Below are positions 9,340 through 51,446 of a stretch of 64,000 nucleotides of DNA, one piece after another. This DNA is from Aestuariispira ectoiniformans. GTDB taxonomy: Bacteria; Pseudomonadota; Alphaproteobacteria; UBA8366; Aestuariispiraceae. The stretch spans positions 992,001 through 1,056,000 of the forward strand of contig NZ_CP062788.1 in assembly GCF_025136295.1 (NCBI RefSeq). The letters run 5' to 3'. The notes beneath the pieces are model-generated. The model saw only the letters and a program-made list of their open reading frames with translations, had not been told where the DNA came from and made no database searches. Made by a program: the position numbers and the translations under genes. Positions within the stretch are counted from its first letter, which is position 1; the number at the start of each line of letters is the position of its first letter.

Positions 9340-11274
9340 ATGGAAGATATTCTGGACCTATATGCCGAACACTACAGTCTGGCGCGTGAGGAAGAGATGA
9401 CGCTCCACGACTATCTGCGAGGCTGCCGCGATGACGCAGGCATGTACGCCAGTGCCGCAGAACGTATGATTGCCGCCGTTGGAGAGCCGGAGCTGGTGGA
9501 TACGAGCCAGGACACGCGCCTGGGCCGGATATTCCACAACCGGACAATCAAGCGCTATCGCGCCTTTGATGACTTTTATGGCATGGAAGACACGATCGAA
9601 CGCATCGTGGGTTATTTCCGCTATGCAGCCCAGGGGCTGGAAGAACGCAAGCAGATCCTCTATCTCCTCGGGCCCGTTGGTGGCGGCAAGTCCTCCCTGG
9701 CCGAAAAGCTCAAACAGCTGATGGAAAAAGAGCCGATCTATGTCCTGAAGGCAGGCGATCAGATCAGCCCGATTTTTGAATCTCCGCTGGGGATTTTCGA
9801 CAAGGATCGCATGGGGGCTGTGCTGGCGGAAAAATATGGTATTGCACAGCACCGCCTGACCGGCCTGATGTCTCCCTGGGCGGTCAAACGTCTGGATGAA
9901 TTCGAAGGCGACATTTCGAAATTCAGCGTGGTCCGGCTGAACCCTTCAAAACTTCGCCAGATTTGCATTTCCAAGGTCGAACCCGGTGATGAAAACAACC
10001 AGGATATCTCCACCCTCGTGGGTAAGGTTGATATTCGCAAGCTGGAACATTTCAGCCAGCACGACCCGGATGCCTACAGCTATTCCGGTGGCCTGAACCG
10101 CACGACCCAGGGCCTGATGGAATTCGTGGAGATGTTCAAGGCGCCGATCAAGGTGCTGCACCCCATGCTGACCGCGACCCAGGAAGGTAACTATATCGGC
10201 ACCGAAAGTTTCGGCGCACTGCCTTTCCAGGGGGTTATCCTGGCGCATTCGAATGAGGCGGAATGGCAGCAGTTCAAGAACAACAAGAATAACGAGGCTT
10301 TCATTGACCGTGTCTGCATCGTGAAGGTGCCCTATTGCCTGCGCATGACCGAAGAGGCGATGATCTATTCCAAACTGGTTGAAAACAGCGAGTTGAATGA
10401 AGCCCCCTGTGCCCCGGAAACCCTCAATATTCTCAGCCGCTTCAGTGTTCTGACACGGTTGAAACCCCATGAGAATTCCAATCTCTATTCCAAGATGCGG
10501 GTCTATGATGGCGAAAGCCTCAAGGATACCGATCCGAAAGCCAAGACGGTACAGGAATATCGTGATGCAGCCGGCGTTGACGAGGGCATGGACGGTGTTT
10601 CCACCCGTTTCGCCTTCAAGGTGCTCAGCTCCACCTTCAATTACGATACCGAAGAGGTGGCGGCGGACCCTGTGCATCTGATGTATATCCTGGAACAGAT
10701 GATCAAACGCGAACAGTTCCCGCCGGAACAGGAAAGCACCTATCTTGAATTCATCAAGGAAGAACTGGCGCCGCGTTATGCCGAGTTCATCGGTAATGAA
10801 ATCCAGAAGGCCTATCTGGAAAGCTATACCGAATACGGTCAGAACGTCTTCGACCGCTATATTTCCTATGCCGATGCCTGGATTGAGGAGCAGGATTACA
10901 AGGACCCGGATACGGGACAGCTCTTCAATCGTCAGGTCCTCGATGCGGAACTGTCCAAGATCGAGAAACCGGCGGGCATTTCCAATCCGAAGGATTTCCG
11001 GAACGAAGTGGTCAAATTCGCGCTCCGGACACGGGCCAATACCGGGTCGAACCCGGCCTGGACGTCCTATGAGAAACTGCGTGATGTGATCGAAAAGCAC
11101 ATGTTCAGTCAGGTTGAAGACCTGCTGCCGGTGATCAGTTTCGGCACCAAGAAAGACAGCGATACCGAAGGCAAGCACAAGGAGTTTGTCGATCGTATGC
11201 AGGACCATGGTTACACCGAACGTCAGGTCCGCCGTCTGGTCGAATGGTATATGCGCGTGAACAAGGCCGGTTAA
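9340..11274 (+). CDS. prkA: PrkA (YeaG) serine protein kinase
   Basis: A 644-residue protein of the PrkA/YeaG family, an AAA-like ATPase domain followed by a kinase-like C-terminal domain; in enterobacteria it acts in nitrogen-starvation and stationary-phase stress. The Walker A is LLGPVGGGKSSLAEKLKQL, and family motifs such as GALPFQGVILAHSNEAEW and a C-terminal VEWYMRVNKAG are clear. The start at 9340 has a strong AAGGAGG 9 bases upstream. It is the first gene of a tight operon with yeaH (19-base gap) and spoVR (1-base overlap). A hairpin-rich leader lies upstream. Confidence 0.97.
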   Translation: MEDILDLYAEHYSLAREEEMTLHDYLRGCRDDAGMYASAAERMIAAVGEPELVDTSQDTRLGRIFHNRTIKRYRAFDDFYGMEDTIERIVGYFRYAAQGLEERKQILYLLGPVGGGKSSLAEKLKQLMEKEPIYVLKAGDQISPIFESPLGIFDKDRMGAVLAEKYGIAQHRLTGLMSPWAVKRLDEFEGDISKFSVVRLNPSKLRQICISKVEPGDENNQDISTLVGKVDIRKLEHFSQHDPDAYSYSGGLNRTTQGLMEFVEMFKAPIKVLHPMLTATQEGNYIGTESFGALPFQGVILAHSNEAEWQQFKNNKNNEAFIDRVCIVKVPYCLRMTEEAMIYSKLVENSELNEAPCAPETLNILSRFSVLTRLKPHENSNLYSKMRVYDGESLKDTDPKAKTVQEYRDAAGVDEGMDGVSTRFAFKVLSSTFNYDTEEVAADPVHLMYILEQMIKREQFPPEQESTYLEFIKEELAPRYAEFIGNEIQKAYLESYTEYGQNVFDRYISYADAWIEEQDYKDPDTGQLFNRQVLDAELSKIEKPAGISNPKDFRNEVVKFALRTRANTGSNPAWTSYEKLRDVIEKHMFSQVEDLLPVISFGTKKDSDTEGKHKEFVDRMQDHGYTERQVRRLVEWYMRVNKAG

Positions 11275-11293
11275 CCCGGAAAGGAGGCCGGTC

Positions 11294-12610
11294 ATGCACC
11301 ATTTCGTAGACCGACGGCAAAATCCGAAGGGCAAGAGCCTGGGGAACCGTCAAAGGTTCCTCCGGCGTGCCCGGCACCACATCAAGGATATGGTGGACCG
11401 GTCGATCAAGGACCGTTCCATGGGCGACCTGGAAAATGGTGAACAGGTCACCATCCCGACCAAGGGGATCAAGGAGCCCCATCTGGTCCACTCTCCCAAC
11501 GGTGGCAAGCGCGAGCGTATCTTTCCCGGCAATAAGGAATTTGTGGTGGGGGACAGTTTTCCCCGACCCAAACAGGGCGGTGGAAAAGGCCAGGGCAAAC
11601 AGGCCTCCGAAGATGGCGAAGGCGAGGATGCCTTTACCTTCACCCTGACCCGGGAAGAATTCCTGGAGCTGTTGTTCGAAGATCTGGAACTGCCTGATCT
11701 GGTAAAGACCACCTTGAAGGAAACCACAACCGTCAAACAGCGCAAGGCGGGGCTTGCGACGCAAGGGACGCCCGCCAACCTGAACCTGATCCGCACAATG
11801 AGAAATTCGCTTGGCCGACGTATTGCGCTCAAGCGGCCCTCGGGTGACGAGGTTGCCGCGCTGGAAGCGGAAATCGCCGAACTGGAGGCCAAGGAAAACC
11901 GCACGGCGGGCGAGGCCAAGCGGCTGGAAGAGTTGAAGGAACAATTGGAGGCATTGGAACGGCGCCGGAAGATCGTATCTTTCATCGACCCGGTGGATAT
12001 CCGCTACAACTCCTTTGTGCCGGAAATCATTCCGAATTCAAAGGCGGTCATGTTCTGCCTGATGGATGTCTCCGGCTCCATGGCGGAACGGGAAAAGGAG
12101 CTGGCGAAACGTTTCTTCCTGTTGCTGCACCTGTTTTTGGAACGGCGTTACGAACATACCGAAATCGTTTTTATCCGCCACACCCATTATGCCCAGGAAG
12201 TGGATGAGGAAACCTTCTTCTATGGCCGGGAAACCGGCGGCACGGTCGTCAGCACCGCGCTGGAAGAAATGGAGAAGATCGTCAAGGACCGCTATCCGAC
12301 CGGTGAGTGGAATATCTATGCCGCCCAGGCATCCGATGGCGAGAACCTCAGCCGGGATTCGCTGAAATGCGAACAGCTTCTGGAAGAGCGCCTGATGCCG
12401 GTGTGCCAGTTCTATGCCTATGTAGAGATTGTGGAGGAAAGCGAGATGGAAATCCTTGCCTCCGACGAGGCAGGCGGTGAATTGTGGCGCGCCTATCGCG
12501 AGGTCCGAAGCCGCTGGCCCAATTTCGACATGCGGCGCATCGCACAGCCCTCCCATATCTATCCGGTTTTCCGTGACTTCTTCAGCAGCAAGAAGGAAGG
12601 GGTTCGTTAA
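11294..12610 (+). CDS. yeaH: YeaH/YhbH family protein (DUF444), VWA-like
   Basis: A 438-residue partner of PrkA. The N-terminal third is basic and Gly/Lys-rich (VDRRQNPKGKSLGNRQRF; GGGKGQGKQ). A coiled-coil segment of alternating Glu/Lys follows at about 190-225 (EVAALEAEIAELEAKEN). The C-terminal half is a von Willebrand A-like fold with the MIDAS motif DVSGSM. AAGGAGG stands 7 bases before the ATG. The TAA overlaps the spoVR ATG by one base (TAATG), so the two are translationally coupled. Its molecular role is not known; in E. coli the gene is co-regulated with yeaG. Confidence 0.96.
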   Translation: MHHFVDRRQNPKGKSLGNRQRFLRRARHHIKDMVDRSIKDRSMGDLENGEQVTIPTKGIKEPHLVHSPNGGKRERIFPGNKEFVVGDSFPRPKQGGGKGQGKQASEDGEGEDAFTFTLTREEFLELLFEDLELPDLVKTTLKETTTVKQRKAGLATQGTPANLNLIRTMRNSLGRRIALKRPSGDEVAALEAEIAELEAKENRTAGEAKRLEELKEQLEALERRRKIVSFIDPVDIRYNSFVPEIIPNSKAVMFCLMDVSGSMAEREKELAKRFFLLLHLFLERRYEHTEIVFIRHTHYAQEVDEETFFYGRETGGTVVSTALEEMEKIVKDRYPTGEWNIYAAQASDGENLSRDSLKCEQLLEERLMPVCQFYAYVEIVEESEMEILASDEAGGELWRAYREVRSRWPNFDMRRIAQPSHIYPVFRDFFSSKKEGVR

Positions 12611-26204: not shown

Positions 26205-26313
26205 CCGGAATCCGCATCGCGTCGCTTTTTCCGTAGAAATTTGCCGCACCTGAGACGAGACAGATAGAGCAGGGCTGATAATGTCCGATCGTCATCGTGG
26301 GATATGCGATGGC

Positions 26314-26521
26314 CGGTTGCAGGTGCCTTGGGTCTCTTTCGCGGGAGCCCGGGGAGAATTGGGAAGCCGGTGCGACGGATCTCCGTCAATTCCGGCGCTG
26401 CCCCCGCAACGGTAAGAGAGGAAGGGCCTGCGTCGCAAACCACTGGGGGTGCACACCCTGGGAAGGGACGGCAGGCGGATGAAACAATCCCCTCTTGAGC
26501 CCGGAAACCAGCCTGAGACCG
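26314..26521 (+). promoter_or_regulatory. Cobalamin riboswitch (AdoCbl/B12 element)
   Basis: All conserved parts of the B12 element occur in order: GGGAAGCCGGTG at 26361-26372, GCTGCCCCCGCAACGGTAAG at 26398-26417, the CCACTGG arm near 26440, and the B12 box GAGCCCGGAAACCAGCCTG at about 26497-26515. An outer P1 stem can form between CGGTTGCAGG (from 26314) and CCTGAGACCG (to 26521). It lies on the plus strand about 210 bases before gbcA with no other gene between. Binding of coenzyme B12 normally represses the downstream gene. No T-tailed terminator is seen, so control of translation start, or a weak expression platform, is more likely. Confidence 0.93.
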
Positions 26522-26733
26522 AACAGTCGATTGGATCGCGGTGGGCGATTTGGCTGACGTGCTTGGGAAAAGCCCGGGTGTCCGACAGGGGACGTGCGAC
26601 CCTGCGGAAGGAACCGGTTACGTCTCCGGCGCGATCAGACCATCTCTCCAAAATCCGTGATCCATAACAAACGAAATTCAGTCCGACCCGCACGCCAAGA
26701 CGGGACCAGGACAGGACGATGAGGAATTGCGTT

Positions 26734-27978
26734 ATGGATGCGACAGGTTTGATGCGTGGCTTGCTTGCCAATCGTCGCCAGGGGTTCAGTCTGGAACAGC
26801 CTTTTTACAATGACCAGGCCTTCTATGACCTGGATATCAAACATGTCTGGTACAAATCCTGGCTGTTCGCCGGGGTAACCGCCGACATCCCGAAGTCGGG
26901 CGATTACTTCACCATGCAGGTGGGCGATAGCTCCATCGTCGTGGTCCGGGACCAGGACGGCAGCATCCATGGCATGTTCAACACCTGCCGCCATCGCGGT
27001 TCCAAGCTTTGCCTCAAGGAAAAGGGCAACAGCCCGAAACTGGTCTGCCCCTATCACCAGTGGACCTATAACCTGGACGGATCACTCCTGTTTGCAGGCA
27101 ATATGGGCGATGATTTCAAGGCGTCCGACTATCCGCTGAAGAAGGTTCACACCGAAGTTGTCGGTGGCTATATCTTCGTCTGTCTGGCCGATGAGGCCCC
27201 GGACTTCAGTGACTTCCGCCGCGATGTGGAACCTTTCCTGCTGCCGCATGGGTTGGAAGACGCAAAAGTCGCCTATGAGACGACGATCCTGGAAAAGGCC
27301 AACTGGAAGCTGGTGATCGAGAACAACCGCGAATGTTATCACTGTGCGGGGTCTCATCCGGAATTGCTGAACACGCTGGCGGAATTCGACAATACGAATG
27401 ACCCGCGTATCGACCCGAAATATAAAGAAATCCAGGAACGCAAGGCGAAGGACTGGGATGCGCTGGGCCTGCCGCATGAACCGACCCCGGATAACCTGCG
27501 CTATCGCGCGGTGCGGCTGCCTTTCATCAATGGCGCAAAATCCATGACCATCGACGGGTCGCCTGCCTGTGAAAAGCTGATGGGCAACCTGACCGACCGG
27601 GAACTGGGCTCCGTTCGTATGTTGAGCCTGCCCAATAGCTGGAACCATCTGCAGAGCGACCATGCGCTTGCCTTCCGCGTGTTGCCGGTCGGCCCGCAGG
27701 AAACCCTGGTGACCACCAAATGGCTGGTTCACAAGGATGCGGTGGAAGGCAAGGACTACGACCTGGAGAAAATGACCCGCGTCTGGATCGCCACAAACGA
27801 CCAGGACCGCAAGCTGGCCGAAGATAACCAGGCCGGCATCAACTCCAAGGCCTATCAGCCGGGCCCCTATTCGGAACGTATTGAATTCGGTGTGCGCAAT
27901 TTCATCGACTGGTACTGCCAGGAACTGGAAGCGCAGATTGATCGTGAGACCCCAGAGCTTCAGGTGGTGAACGCCTGA
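26734..27978 (+). CDS. gbcA: Glycine betaine monooxygenase, Rieske oxygenase subunit
   Basis: A 414-residue Rieske non-heme iron oxygenase that demethylates glycine betaine to dimethylglycine and formaldehyde with O2 and electrons from GbcB. The Rieske cluster ligands are in CRHRGSKLC and CPYHQW. The catalytic iron motif is ENNRECYHCAGSHPELL. The C-terminal block TTKWLVHKDAVEGKDYDLE and the later NDQDRKLAEDNQAGINS match GbcA closely and separate it from aromatic-ring dioxygenases. The ATG at 26734 has GAGGAA 8-9 bases upstream; an in-frame ATG at 26719 is an alternative. A cobalamin riboswitch lies upstream and a strong terminator downstream, before gbcB. Confidence 0.9.
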   Translation: MDATGLMRGLLANRRQGFSLEQPFYNDQAFYDLDIKHVWYKSWLFAGVTADIPKSGDYFTMQVGDSSIVVVRDQDGSIHGMFNTCRHRGSKLCLKEKGNSPKLVCPYHQWTYNLDGSLLFAGNMGDDFKASDYPLKKVHTEVVGGYIFVCLADEAPDFSDFRRDVEPFLLPHGLEDAKVAYETTILEKANWKLVIENNRECYHCAGSHPELLNTLAEFDNTNDPRIDPKYKEIQERKAKDWDALGLPHEPTPDNLRYRAVRLPFINGAKSMTIDGSPACEKLMGNLTDRELGSVRMLSLPNSWNHLQSDHALAFRVLPVGPQETLVTTKWLVHKDAVEGKDYDLEKMTRVWIATNDQDRKLAEDNQAGINSKAYQPGPYSERIEFGVRNFIDWYCQELEAQIDRETPELQVVNA

Positions 27979-27985
27979 GGCAAAT

Positions 27986-28033
27986 CGGGAGGGGGTGGAT
28001 AGAACCCCCAAACGCCCCCTCCCGCTTTTTTTT
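27986..28033 (+). terminator. Strong Rho-independent terminator between gbcA and gbcB
   Basis: CGGGAGGGGG (27986-27995) pairs with CCCCCTCCCG (28015-28024) and is followed by C and eight T. It lies 8 bases after the gbcA stop, so gbcB is expressed by read-through or from its own promoter in 28034-28104. Confidence 0.92.
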
Positions 28034-28104
28034 AAGAATAAGGCAGCGGGCCGGTTTCGGCCCAAAAGCCGTTTAAATGCGCCTAATAGGATGGAGTAGG
28101 AGCG

Positions 28105-29193
28105 ATGTCCGTTATCAAGTCGATCACGGCCCTGAATAAAACCAAACCCTGGGACAGCCATAACCAGTTGCTGGAATGCGTGATGGTCCGCCAGGATTCC
28201 CACAATGTGAAGACCTTTGTCTTCCATACCTCCGACAATAGTTGGTTCGTCTACCTGCCGGGGCAGTTCATCACGCTGGAACTGAATATCGACGGTAAGA
28301 CGGTCCATCGCACCTATACGCTTTCCTCCAGTCCCTCGCGCCCGCTTTGCATTTCCATCACGGTGAAGGCCAACCAGGATGGTTATGTGTCCAAATGGCT
28401 GCATGAAAACATGAAGGAAGGTGACAAGGTTAAGGCCTATGGCCCCGCCGGGATTTTCAGCTTCCACAATCACCTGTCGGACAAATACCTGTTCCTGGCC
28501 GGTGGCGTCGGGATTACACCGCTGATGTCCATGGCGCGCTGGATGTTCGACTACGGCACCGAAAGCGATGTGGTCTTTATCCAGTGTAACCAGACGCCCA
28601 GCGACAATCTGTTCACCCGCGAGTTGGAAAGCATGAGCGCGCGCACGCCGGAAATGAAGGTGGCGCTGGTCTGTGAGCGTGCGGATGAATACGGTGCCTG
28701 GACCGGTTATACGGGCCGTATCAACCAGCTTATGCTGGAACTGATCGCGCCGGACTATATGGAACGCGAGATTTTCTGCTGCGGGCCGGAACCCTATATG
28801 CAGGCGGTGCGCGATATCCTGAACACGGCCGGTTTCGACATGGACCGCTATCACGAGGAAAGCTTCACCTCGCCGGTGGAAACCGAGGCGGATATTCCGG
28901 ATCACGACGATGTCATCATTGACGAGACCAACAAATCCCAGGTTGCCTTCATCAATTCCGGCAAGACGGTCAAGGTGAGCGAAAGCGAGACCATTCTGGC
29001 GGCGGCGAAAGAGGCCGGTATCCATATCCCCAATGCCTGCCAGTTCGGTGTCTGCGGCACCTGCAAGGTGAAGAAAACCTCCGGTGACGTCCATATGGTC
29101 CACAACGGTGGCATCAACGACGAGGATGTCGAGGCCGGTTACATCCTCGCCTGCTGTTCCAACCCGTTGGGCGAAGTCGAGATCGAGTACTAG
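28105..29193 (+). CDS. gbcB: Glycine betaine monooxygenase, ferredoxin-NAD(P)H reductase subunit
   Basis: A 362-residue electron donor to GbcA. Order of domains: FAD-binding barrel with the flavin motif HRTYTLSSSPSRP, an NAD(P)-binding domain with GGVGITPLMSM and FCCGPEPYMQAV, and a C-terminal plant-type [2Fe-2S] ferredoxin with CQFGVCGTC and a distal CC in ILACCS. This order matches GbcB. GGAGTAGGAGCG precedes the ATG. It lies 126 bases after gbcA with a terminator between them. Sarcosine/dimethylglycine-processing genes expected in a full betaine pathway are not in this window. Confidence 0.9.
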   Translation: MSVIKSITALNKTKPWDSHNQLLECVMVRQDSHNVKTFVFHTSDNSWFVYLPGQFITLELNIDGKTVHRTYTLSSSPSRPLCISITVKANQDGYVSKWLHENMKEGDKVKAYGPAGIFSFHNHLSDKYLFLAGGVGITPLMSMARWMFDYGTESDVVFIQCNQTPSDNLFTRELESMSARTPEMKVALVCERADEYGAWTGYTGRINQLMLELIAPDYMEREIFCCGPEPYMQAVRDILNTAGFDMDRYHEESFTSPVETEADIPDHDDVIIDETNKSQVAFINSGKTVKVSESETILAAAKEAGIHIPNACQFGVCGTCKVKKTSGDVHMVHNGGINDEDVEAGYILACCSNPLGEVEIEY

Positions 29194-29199
29194 AGCTGG

Positions 29200-29232
29200 C
29201 ATATCCCGCAATGCGGGATGTGTTTGTTATTA
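29200..29232 (+). terminator. Terminator after gbcB
   Basis: ATCCCGC (29203-29209) and GCGGGAT (29213-29219) form a tight stem with an AAT loop, followed by GTGTTTGTTATTAT. It lies 7 bases after the gbcB stop codon. Confidence 0.75.
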
Positions 29233-49931: not shown

Positions 49932-51446
49932 ATGCCCTATGCCTCCTTGCGCGATTTTATGGACAAGCTGGAACTGGACGGGCGACTGGTGCGCGTGAAA
50001 CATCCGGTTTCAACTGTTCTGGAAATGACGGAAATCCAGACACGCCTGCTGGCTGAAGGCGGTCCGGCGGTATTGTTTGAAAATGTCATTCGCGCCGACG
50101 GCTCTCCCTCCAACATGCCGGTTCTGGTGAACCTGTTCGGCACGGTGGAACGCGTCGCCTGGGGAATGGAACGCACGCCCAAGCAGTTACGGGAAGTGGG
50201 CGAGATGCTGGCCTTCCTGCGCCAGCCGGAACCGCCGGGGGGCTTCAAGGAAGCCTTCGAGATGCTGCCGATCCTGAAAACCGTGATGGCGATGAAGCCC
50301 AAGACCACCGGCAAGGCCCCCTGTCAGGAAGTGGTGCTGGAGGGCGATCAGGTCAACCTGCGGCAACTGCCGATCCAGACCTGCTGGCCGGGAGAGCCCG
50401 CGCCGCTGATCACCTGGCCGCTGGTGGTGACGCAGGGACCGAACCCCAAGGGTGACAAGACGGATGCGTATAATCTTGGCATTTACAGGATGCAGTTGCT
50501 GGGGCGCAACCAGACCATCATGCGCTGGCTGAAGCATCGCGGCGGGGCGCAGCATCATGCGCGCTGGAAAAAGGAAAAGGCGGAACCGCTGCCCGTGGCC
50601 GTGGTGCTTGGGGCCGATCCCGGCACAATACTGGCGGCGGTGACGCCCGTGCCCGACACCCTGTCGGAATATCAGTTTGCGGGCCTGCTGCGCGGCAAGA
50701 AGGTGGAGCTGGTCGACTGCAAGACCGTGCCGCTGAAAGTCCCGGCAGAGGCGGAGATTGTGCTGGAAGGCTATGTCTCGTTGGATGATTACGCCGATGA
50801 GGGGCCCTATGGCGACCATACCGGCTATTATAATTCGGTGGAACAGTTCCCCATCTTTACCGTGACCGCGGTGACGATGCGCAAGAACCCGATTTACCTC
50901 AGCACCTTCACTGGCCGTCCGCCGGATGAACCGTCGGTTCTGGGCGAGGCGCTGAACGAGGTCTTCATCCCGCTCTTGCAACAGCAATTCCCGGAGATCA
51001 CCGATTTCTGGCTGCCGCCGGAAGGCTGCAGCTATCGCATCGCCGTCATTTCCATGAAGAAGGCCTATCCCGGCCATGCCAAGCGGGTGATGATGGGCGC
51101 GTGGTCCTATCTGCGCCAGTTCATGTATACCAAATGGCTGATCGTGGTGGATGACGATATCAATGCGCGCGACTGGAAAGACGTGATGTGGGCGGTTTCC
51201 ACCAAGATGGACCCGGCCCGCGATATCACTGTGATCGAGGATACGCCCATCGACTATCTGGATTTTGCCAGCCCGGAACCCAGCCTGGGCTCCAAGATCG
51301 GGCTGGACGCCACCGACAAGGTATTCCCGGAAACCAAACGCGAATGGGGCGAGGAAATCCGCATGGATCAGGAGATTGTCGACCGCGTTTCGGATATGTG
51401 GGAAAAACTGGGCCTGCCGGGGTCCGGCAAGCCCATTTGGAAGTAA
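49932..51446 (+). CDS. ubiD: UbiD-family prenylated-FMN decarboxylase
   Basis: A 504-residue decarboxylase, most simply 3-octaprenyl-4-hydroxybenzoate carboxy-lyase of ubiquinone synthesis. [22 protein letters not shown] is the usual N-terminus. The prFMN- and metal-binding region is seen around [20 protein letters not shown], and [12 protein letters not shown] holds an active-site Glu. The start at 49932 removes 48 unsupported codons. The prenyltransferase partner ubiX is not in the window, so its true substrate (ubiquinone precursor or another aromatic acid) rests on general similarity. Confidence 0.92.

Follow-up and report, generated by a model that had tools for sequence, protein, structure and literature searches.

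A cobalamin riboswitch upstream of gbcAB-like genes in Aestuariispira ectoiniformans and its inferred role in the control of betaine demethylation

The DNA under study is a stretch of 64,000 nucleotides of Aestuariispira ectoiniformans (contig NZ_CP062788.1, positions 992,001 to 1,056,000), hereafter the window, and the positions given below are those of this stretch. At the locus, a cobalamin riboswitch is followed on the same strand by a P13-type hairpin, a long leader, a gbcA-like gene and a gbcB-like gene. An earlier note, made from the sequence alone, had described a complete B12 element directly upstream of gbcA with nothing between, and had named the lack of a significant cobalamin-model hit as a result that would count against it. 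We confirmed the observation of the note: the scan with Rfam models gave a full-length match to RF00174, which scored far above the gathering score of 31.5 bits and was the only Rfam match at gathering score in the 64 kb. The core and the B12 box are where the note had put them, with TTGGGAAGCCGGTG at 26359-26372. When up to 2 mismatches were allowed, the box had 2 matches in the window against 0.1 expected, this one (exact) and one with 1 mismatch at 51270, where Rfam finds nothing. The note had also named a transcript ending before gbcA as a refuting case; no terminator-like site was found between the riboswitch and gbcA, and one lies just after gbcB. The P13-type hairpin and the distinctive box were not mentioned in the note. 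The features are collected in Table 1.

Table 1. Features of the riboswitch-gbcAB locus, in window coordinates.
Feature	Position (strand)	Evidence
Cobalamin riboswitch aptamer (RF00174), gbcA-type	26304..26530 (+)	cmscan 109.4 bits, E 1.7e-26, model 1-189 of 189
CAACGGT, part of the gbcA-type signature; classic riboswitches mostly have CAACTGT	26407..26413 (+)	2 of 45 riboswitches without the variant box share it
Variant B12 box AGCCCGGAAACCAGCC, seen in the gbcA and fdhA riboswitches	26498..26513 (+)	24 of 69 riboswitches carry it (23 before gbcA, 1 before fdhA), 45 do not
P13-type hairpin (GAUCGC-GGUGG-GCGAUU), candidate L13 partner of the L5 loop of the aptamer (26398-26407); naming by analogy	26534..26550 (+)	5 of 6 pairs change on both sides among 27 leaders, 96.9% of cells paired
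Long leader between P13 and the ribosome-binding site, no intrinsic terminator found; putative expression platform, translational or Rho-dependent (inferred)	26551..26720 (+)	
Shine-Dalgarno-like GAGGA ahead of the likely gbcA start at 26734	26721..26725 (+)	Sequence and homologous N-termini
gbcA-like: Rieske-type glycine betaine monooxygenase, oxygenase subunit (open reading frame begins at 26719)	26734..27978 (+)	NF058607 635.3 bits, cut-off 670 not reached; Rieske and Ring_hydroxyl_A domains
gbcB-like: reductase subunit (FAD/NAD/2Fe-2S)	28105..29193 (+)	NF058606 454.2 bits, cut-off 500 not reached; FAD_binding_6, NAD_binding_1, Fer2
Terminator-like hairpin after gbcB	29198..29224 (+)	6 such sites in the region against 2.9 expected, so a pattern match only

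Both proteins are best matched by the NCBIfam GbcA and GbcB models, but each falls short of the curated cut-off. On the GbcA model, the close relatives L013, L127 and L020 scored 623-655 bits, a member of family f197 (L192) 802 bits and Chromohalobacter moromii 815 bits, so the window protein is GbcA-like in the strict sense. The adjacent reductase gene expected of a GbcA system is present. In the tree the window protein groups with the GbcA of f197 (support 98), while five members of other clades scored 468-521 bits on the same model. It is possible that the substrate is another betaine, such as proline betaine, and that the B12-dependent counterpart is the matching MTTB enzyme. Three riboswitch-linked homologues from other families are nearer to the stachydrine demethylase Stc2 (508, 540 and 669 bits to 3vca) than the window protein is (423 bits), so the substrate there may be proline betaine; MTTB genes come in many copies (2-12 in 12 riboswitch-gbcA genomes), and one MTTB gene of this genome is followed by a gene whose start, read by eye, resembles a mandelate-racemase-type epimerase. 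Considering the grouping of the window protein, we regard this alternative as unlikely for the window gene; glycine betaine is its likely substrate but is unproven, as enzyme activity was not assayed.

The comparative search that the note had proposed showed that the pairing recurs. In the family of the window 14 genomes were searched, and 8 of 8 gbcA-bearing genomes have the riboswitch directly 5' of gbcA. It also occurs in four other families of the class sample, in 10 genomes of two further families, in Rhodoferax lacus, and in named Sinorhizobium, Phaeobacter and Ruegeria plasmids. With our model no cobalamin riboswitch was found at 79 of 80 named, mostly gammaproteobacterial, gbcA loci, nor at the best-matching locus of 13 of 13 gbcA genomes outside the class. 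No gbcA was found on viral contigs. These riboswitches share a distinctive box (AGYCCGGAAACCAGCC), and a search of 398 genomes with the box alone, without the gene as a query, gave 10 new hits that lie in an RF00174 riboswitch, 10 of 10 of which have a gbcA homologue next; on the tree of the larger set of riboswitches, the label is defined by the box itself. In two families the riboswitch of gbcA stands back to back with a classic one ahead of ribonucleotide reductase genes (genome G418, alpha subunit; genome G692, nrdEF about 0.65 kb further on), which are a B12-independent isozyme target. The P13-type hairpin is conserved and covaries, so the RNA is under selection; its pairing with L5 was not examined, and the hairpin is therefore neither confirmed nor excluded as an L13 partner. 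A chance or vestigial riboswitch without regulatory effect could be proposed from the long leader and the lack of expression evidence, but it is very unlikely considering the conservation over several families, the covarying P13 and the occurrence of one type of riboswitch for one gene.

The genes that the note had asked to be sought elsewhere in the genome were also examined. A riboswitch of the same type precedes fdhA (formaldehyde dehydrogenase; TIGR02819, 711 bits, above the cut-off), and a classic B12 riboswitch precedes a BHMT-like gene, whose closest solved relatives are BHMT entries (E 4.5e-46) although its score on the BHMT model is 92 bits against a cut-off of 338. The genome encodes MtgB-, MtgC-, MtgD-, MtgE- and MetH-like B12-dependent counterparts: it carries three MTTB-family methyltransferases, one of them followed by a dimethylglycine-dehydrogenase-like gene, and a cluster with MtgC-, DUF1638-, MtgE-, MtgD- and RACo-type proteins. 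Canonical metE was not found. The genome that carries gbcAB also encodes the B12-dependent enzyme for the same step, but that they act on the same substrate is inferred.

MTTB (PF06253) is present in 22 of 22 riboswitch-gbcA genomes against 8 of 38 gbcA genomes without the riboswitch (Fisher 8e-10, uncorrected for kinship). Within family f177, one of those with both kinds of gbcA locus, it is 7 of 7 against 0 of 4. By family, with three families on both sides and one mixed family counted as MTTB+, it is 7 of 7 against 4 of 17 (p 0.001). When corrected for kinship, the association rests on 5 supported independent pairs (on average 3.5 the same way, 0 opposite, p 0.125), and this test is underpowered. 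The eight genomes that carry MTTB without the riboswitch are G083, G724, G752, G148, which has an in-frame TGA, and four for which no adjacent gbcB was seen. Of 41 genomes with a GbcA match, 4 are of the family of the window and 26 others had a retrieved locus; six low-identity loci (L147-L152) in which our model found no riboswitch, 5 of 6 MTTB+, were left out of the count, and 11 genomes without a retrieved locus, 7 of 11 MTTB+, were not scanned. With the six the comparison is 22 of 22 against 13 of 44, and with all 17 it is 22 of 22 against 20 of 55, both still significant before correction for kinship. Only the best match of each genome was scanned for a riboswitch (both in genome G776), so that second matches in 9 genomes of this sample and in 5 other genomes were not covered, and Rhodoferax lacus was not included in the MTTB test. 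The second sample was chosen after the box search and contains its 10 genomes, and PF06253 covers methyltransferases for several methylamines, not betaine alone. The comparative evidence favours the first logic proposed in the note, that GbcAB replaces a corrinoid-dependent betaine methyltransferase.

Next we considered how the leader could act. Since no intrinsic terminator was found, this type of expression platform was set aside. Direct sequestration of the ribosome-binding site by P13 was also set aside, as P13 lies 57-164 nt upstream of it in 26 leaders. Folding with P13 enforced lowered the accessibility of the Shine-Dalgarno sequence in 8 of 23 leaders, raised it in 2 and left 13 unchanged, which is only weak support for an OFF switch and did not decide the sign. 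C exceeds G in 24 of 26 leaders, a hint only of Rho-dependent termination, since the best leader window was compared with all coding windows. Leader length is not distinctive of the gbcA type: of 15 classic leaders read by eye, about 6 have the hairpin directly at the ribosome-binding site and the others do not. It is possible that the riboswitch is an activating switch or answers to a different corrinoid form, such as methyl- or hydroxocobalamin, so that gbcAB is induced when B12 is present or reports methyl-B12 status. The gbcA type has its own B12 box and its own P13 loop (GGUGG, where 12 of the 15 classic leaders show GGGGTG or GGGGCG), and the distance of P13 from the ribosome-binding site and the nearly neutral folding test are compatible with this view. 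However, each signature element occurs singly in a few classic riboswitches, so the signature may mark descent only; long leaders also occur among the classic ones; the pairing with ribonucleotide reductase riboswitches and with fdhA and the BHMT-like gene fits repression; and known cobalamin riboswitches mostly repress. We therefore consider this alternative unlikely.

The explanation that we prefer, with fairly good confidence, is that the riboswitch controls a B12-independent isozyme pathway. In this view, when coenzyme B12 is ample the cell would demethylate betaine through corrinoid methyltransferases of the MtgB-MtgC-MtgD type, passing the methyl group to tetrahydrofolate, and the riboswitch would keep gbcAB low. 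When B12 is scarce, the unliganded RNA would let gbcAB be expressed; the Rieske oxygenase would then remove the methyl group with O2 as formaldehyde, which FdhA would oxidise to formate, and the BHMT-like enzyme would make methionine from betaine in place of B12-dependent MetH/MtgE. Our analysis shows the RNA, its conservation, the gene arrangement, the signature and the co-occurrence with MTTB genes, while repression by B12, the ligand, the expression platform and the exact substrates are inferred, as neither cobalamin binding nor expression was measured. The interpretation of the note is supported in its first logic, and its idea that betaine-derived units support methionine synthesis under B12 limitation is partly right, considering the riboswitch of the BHMT-like gene and the lack of canonical metE. 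Its third logic, the sparing of betaine as a methyl donor when B12 is ample without replacement of a corrinoid enzyme, would agree with the presence of B12 riboswitches at both the BHMT-like gene and gbcAB, both of which would consume betaine. This is doubtful, however, considering the co-occurrence with MTTB, including its absence in relatives of family f177 that have gbcA without a riboswitch, and that the BHMT-like enzyme would be up in the same condition and compete with GbcAB for betaine.

A wider reading, which we consider more likely than not, is that a dedicated and apparently horizontally spread type of cobalamin riboswitch, recognisable by its B12 box and P13 loop, controls oxidative N-demethylation of betaines (gbcAB, and fdhA in the genome of the window) across several families of one class and reaches a betaproteobacterium, making B12 supply the switch between corrinoid and O2-dependent betaine catabolism. 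Betaine is a major marine and plant osmolyte and B12 is often limiting in the sea. If B12 decides between the two routes, its supply would set whether the methyl carbon enters tetrahydrofolate or is released as formaldehyde, and a further enzyme class would be added, next to methionine synthase and ribonucleotide reductase, to the B12-free isozymes under riboswitch control. In the open-access literature searched, no title or abstract beginning was found that reports control of gbcAB, betaine or stachydrine demethylation or formaldehyde dehydrogenase by a cobalamin riboswitch.

Cobalamin riboswitches of RF00174 control B12-independent isozymes such as metE and nrdAB/nrdEF. The isozyme category is also described in PMC3766115, whose main text has no occurrence of betaine, gbcA or formaldehyde (its supplements were not examined). 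The element described here belongs to the same aptamer family and follows the same logic of a B12-free enzyme beside a B12-dependent one, but its target is an oxygen-dependent betaine demethylase (and fdhA), and its B12 box and P13 loop are distinct. With the GbcAB glycine betaine monooxygenase of Pseudomonas and Chromohalobacter, the locus shares the gene pair and the domains, and it differs in the riboswitch, which was not found with our model at 79 of the 80 named loci scanned, and in the model score below the curated cut-off. Stc2 (PDB 3vca, 4qup) is of the same Rieske family, and the riboswitch-linked protein of Ruegeria sp. TM1040 is PDB 3n0q itself, although the window protein falls with the GbcA group. 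By comparison with the cobalamin-dependent betaine methyltransferase/methionine synthase MtgBCDE of Ruegeria pomeroyi (PMC12478193), this genome carries a matching set, formed by MTTB, a 232-aa corrinoid protein, a pterin-binding MtgD-like protein, an MtgE-like protein, DUF1638 and a RACo-type activator. In the parts examined, that work mentions a riboswitch only in a reference title, and it reports organisms with GbcAB but not MtgBCDE, while here both are in one genome.

The observation of the earlier note, a cobalamin riboswitch directly upstream of gbcA, was confirmed. Its significance had been set beforehand as a condition on which the observation depended, and in the Rfam scan the only match at gathering score in the 64 kb window was a full-length cobalamin riboswitch (RF00174, 109.4 bits, E 1.7e-26). 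The next genes on the strand are a Rieske oxygenase and its reductase, whose best NCBIfam models are the glycine betaine monooxygenase subunits GbcA (635 bits, cut-off 670) and GbcB (454 bits, cut-off 500), so that both fall a little short of the curated cut-offs. A transcript ending before gbcA had also been named as a result that would speak against the proposal. No terminator-like site lies between RNA and gene, while one follows gbcB. By comparison with homologous N-termini, and taking into account an SD-like GAGGA, the gbcA start was placed inside the open reading frame rather than at its first position. The coordinates are collected in the table.

Positions of the features in the window and in the loci (L numbers) fetched from this and other genomes (G numbers)
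Feature	Locus	Position	Strand
Cobalamin riboswitch, RF00174	window	26304-26530	+
P13-type hairpin	window	26534-26550	
Rieske oxygenase, GbcA-like (ORF)	window	26719-27978	+
Likely gbcA start	window	26734	+
Reductase, GbcB-like	window	28105-29193	+
Terminator-like site after gbcB	window	29198-29224	
Small ORF after a classic cobalamin riboswitch	L003	1106-1462	-
Small ORF after a classic cobalamin riboswitch	L105	1734-2069	+
Small ORF after a classic cobalamin riboswitch	L104	1764-2114	+
Second, divergent classic riboswitch beside that of gbcA (G418 and G692)	L163; L183	5149-5365; 1809-2007	+; +
Classic and gbcA-type riboswitches in line ahead of gbcA (G010)	L015	3719-3927; 2860-3067	-; -
Classic riboswitch near gbcA (G189)	L169	13833-14053	-
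BHMT-like gene near gbcA (G189)		10661-11662	-
MetH-like region of the window's genome	L242	1990-5741	-
Riboswitch-linked oxygenase of Ruegeria sp. TM1040	L248	7138-8364	-

The window lies in a 4.36 Mb single-contig genome in which 8 cobalamin riboswitches were found. Five of them have expected or unidentified targets, namely, DUF4198-CbiM and a CbtA-like gene (both read by eye), an ABC transporter ATPase, BluB, and a small ORF without a family match. Such a small ORF, of about 112-119 aa, follows a classic cobalamin riboswitch in several genomes of the family (by eye), and the three that were searched gave no Pfam or NCBIfam match; it looks like an unnamed B12-regulated protein family. The other three riboswitches form a set, with gbcAB in the window, fdhA, a glutathione-independent formaldehyde dehydrogenase (TIGR02819, 711 bits, cut-off 637), and, divergent from fdhA, a 354-aa S-methyl_trans protein whose best solved relatives are betaine-homocysteine methyltransferases (E 4.5e-46), although it does not reach the cut-off of any NCBIfam model (BHMT model 92 bits, cut-off 338). 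One gbcA copy was found. In G189, a genome of the class sample, a classic cobalamin riboswitch lies about 2 kb upstream of a BHMT-like gene near gbcA; whether they share a transcript was not examined. In G010 a classic riboswitch, a stretch with a DUF1636 match and the gbcA-type riboswitch stand in line on one strand ahead of gbcA.

The presence of corrinoid betaine methyltransferase, metE, metH and BHMT genes elsewhere in this genome had been proposed as a test of the interpretation. Three MTTB-family (PF06253) methyltransferases were found, one of which is followed by a gene with the domains of dimethylglycine dehydrogenase, and its solved relatives include an entry named glycine betaine methyltransferase (9yce). 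It was also possible to see a cluster at about 1,891-1,898 kb that encodes a 232-aa corrinoid protein, DUF1638, a homocysteine methyltransferase domain protein, a pterin-binding protein and a RACo-type activator; a further ORF that we took for MetF-like has no Pfam match at E 1e-5. A second B12-binding_2 match lies in a gene read by eye as MetH, and the MetH-like region appears as two overlapping ORFs of 940 and 354 aa, a split methionine synthase or a frameshift. Canonical metE was not found here, and in 12 genomes tested no match reached the cut-off and 3 had weak partial matches.

The comparative search for the same arrangement, likewise suggested in advance, showed that in the window's family (14 genomes) 8 have gbcA and all 8 have the riboswitch directly upstream. 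In a class sample of 385 genomes, 41 have a GbcA match at E 1e-80 or better. Of these, 26 non-family loci were fetched, 20 of which were scanned with Rfam and all 26 with our own model, and 4 have the riboswitch ahead of gbcA (genomes G297, G418, G189 and G379); for 11 genomes no locus was fetched. Among 80 named GbcA loci, mostly from Gammaproteobacteria and taken as the best of at least 595, our model finds it only in Rhodoferax lacus. Named plasmid records of Phaeobacter gallaeciensis DSM 26640, Sinorhizobium meliloti Ak57 pSymB and Ruegeria sp. TM1040 have it, while the Cereibacter sphaeroides MBTLJ-20 and Paracoccus denitrificans PD1222 loci do not.

The gbcA riboswitches and the fdhA riboswitch carry AGYCCGGAAACCAGCC where classic ones mostly have AGCCAGGAGACCTGCC, plus CAACGGT. 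Of 69 distinct riboswitches in the alignment, 24 carry the box (23 before gbcA, 1 before fdhA) and 45 do not; none of the 45 combines CAACGGT, GGAAACC and ACCAGCC (2, 4 and 1 have one of them). Considering that ten of the 24 were found by the box itself, 30 gbcA loci of the second sample were scanned with a general model as a check; 10 have a riboswitch upstream, and these are the same 10. On a tree of the 69 RNAs the 24 are one side of a branch, with modest support (64/85, 62% of bootstrap trees), and the fdhA RNA sits among gbcA RNAs of the window's family. The search for the box alone in 398 phylum-sampled genomes gave 19 places in 18 genomes, two of which are the window genome's own (gbcA, fdhA). 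Of the other 17, 10 lie in an RF00174 match and all 10 have a gbcA homologue as the next gene, whereas 7 have no riboswitch and look like chance.

Just after the aptamer, 23 of 23 gbcA leaders examined have a hairpin of GRUCGC-GGUGG-GCGAUC type. Among 27 aligned leaders (26 gbcA, 1 fdhA) 96.9% of its cells pair and 5 of 6 pairs show changes on both sides, above the slid controls, although related sequences inflate the shuffle control. We read it as P13, whose loop would pair with L5, a pairing that was not put to a test. In 15 classic leaders read by eye, 12 show a GGGGTG or GGGGCG loop instead, and about 6 have that hairpin directly at the ribosome-binding site, while in the gbcA leaders the site is 57-164 nt further down (26 leaders). 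A difference of leader layout between the gbcA type and the classic riboswitches was considered and withdrawn on these classic leaders. C exceeds G in 24 of 26 of the gbcA stretches, which would suit Rho, but this is a hint. When P13 was enforced in the folding, SD accessibility was lowered in 8 of 23 leaders, raised in 2 and left unchanged in 13.

If GbcAB replaces a corrinoid enzyme, riboswitch-gbcA genomes should carry MTTB genes. In the first set 12 of 12 do, against 6 of 16 gbcA genomes without riboswitch. In the second set, which was chosen after the box search and includes its 10 genomes, 10 of 10 do, against 2 of 22. Together it is 22 of 22 against 8 of 38, within the class alone 22 of 22 against 8 of 25, and within one family (f177) 7 of 7 against 0 of 4; with the rows that were dropped from the comparison the counts are less favourable. 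Corrected for descent, the test has only 5 supported pairs and does not reach significance (3.5 on average for, 0 against, p 0.125), and presence or absence of the riboswitch needs 9 changes on the GbcA tree. MTTB is also present in the 6 family genomes without gbcA, as expected if MTTB is the older route. Two further genomes support the logic by position, since the gbcA riboswitch is back to back with a classic riboswitch ahead of a ribonucleotide reductase alpha-subunit gene in G418 and, with about 0.65 kb not examined for small ORFs, of nrdEF in G692. The first of the possible logics of the earlier note, in which GbcAB replaces a corrinoid-dependent betaine methyltransferase, is supported by comparative evidence, and we hold it with fairly good confidence, slightly reduced by the results against it. 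In this reading the sign of regulation and the ligand are inferred from the known family, whereas the arrangement of RNA and genes was observed directly. No report of this control was found in the literature on B12 riboswitches and betaine demethylation, as far as open-access papers are concerned.

By comparison with what has been described in Ruegeria pomeroyi, the cluster of this genome is the set named MtgC, DUF1638, MtgE, MtgD and RamA (PMC12478193). The substrate of the window enzyme is probably glycine betaine, since it groups with the high-scoring GbcA of another family (f197). Meanwhile, three riboswitch-linked homologues are nearer to Stc2 than it is, so proline betaine is possible there. 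One of them, the riboswitch-linked oxygenase of Ruegeria sp. TM1040, matches the solved structure 3n0q letter for letter over the aligned length; that entry is named putative aromatic-ring hydroxylating dioxygenase, and by inference it is likely a betaine demethylase.
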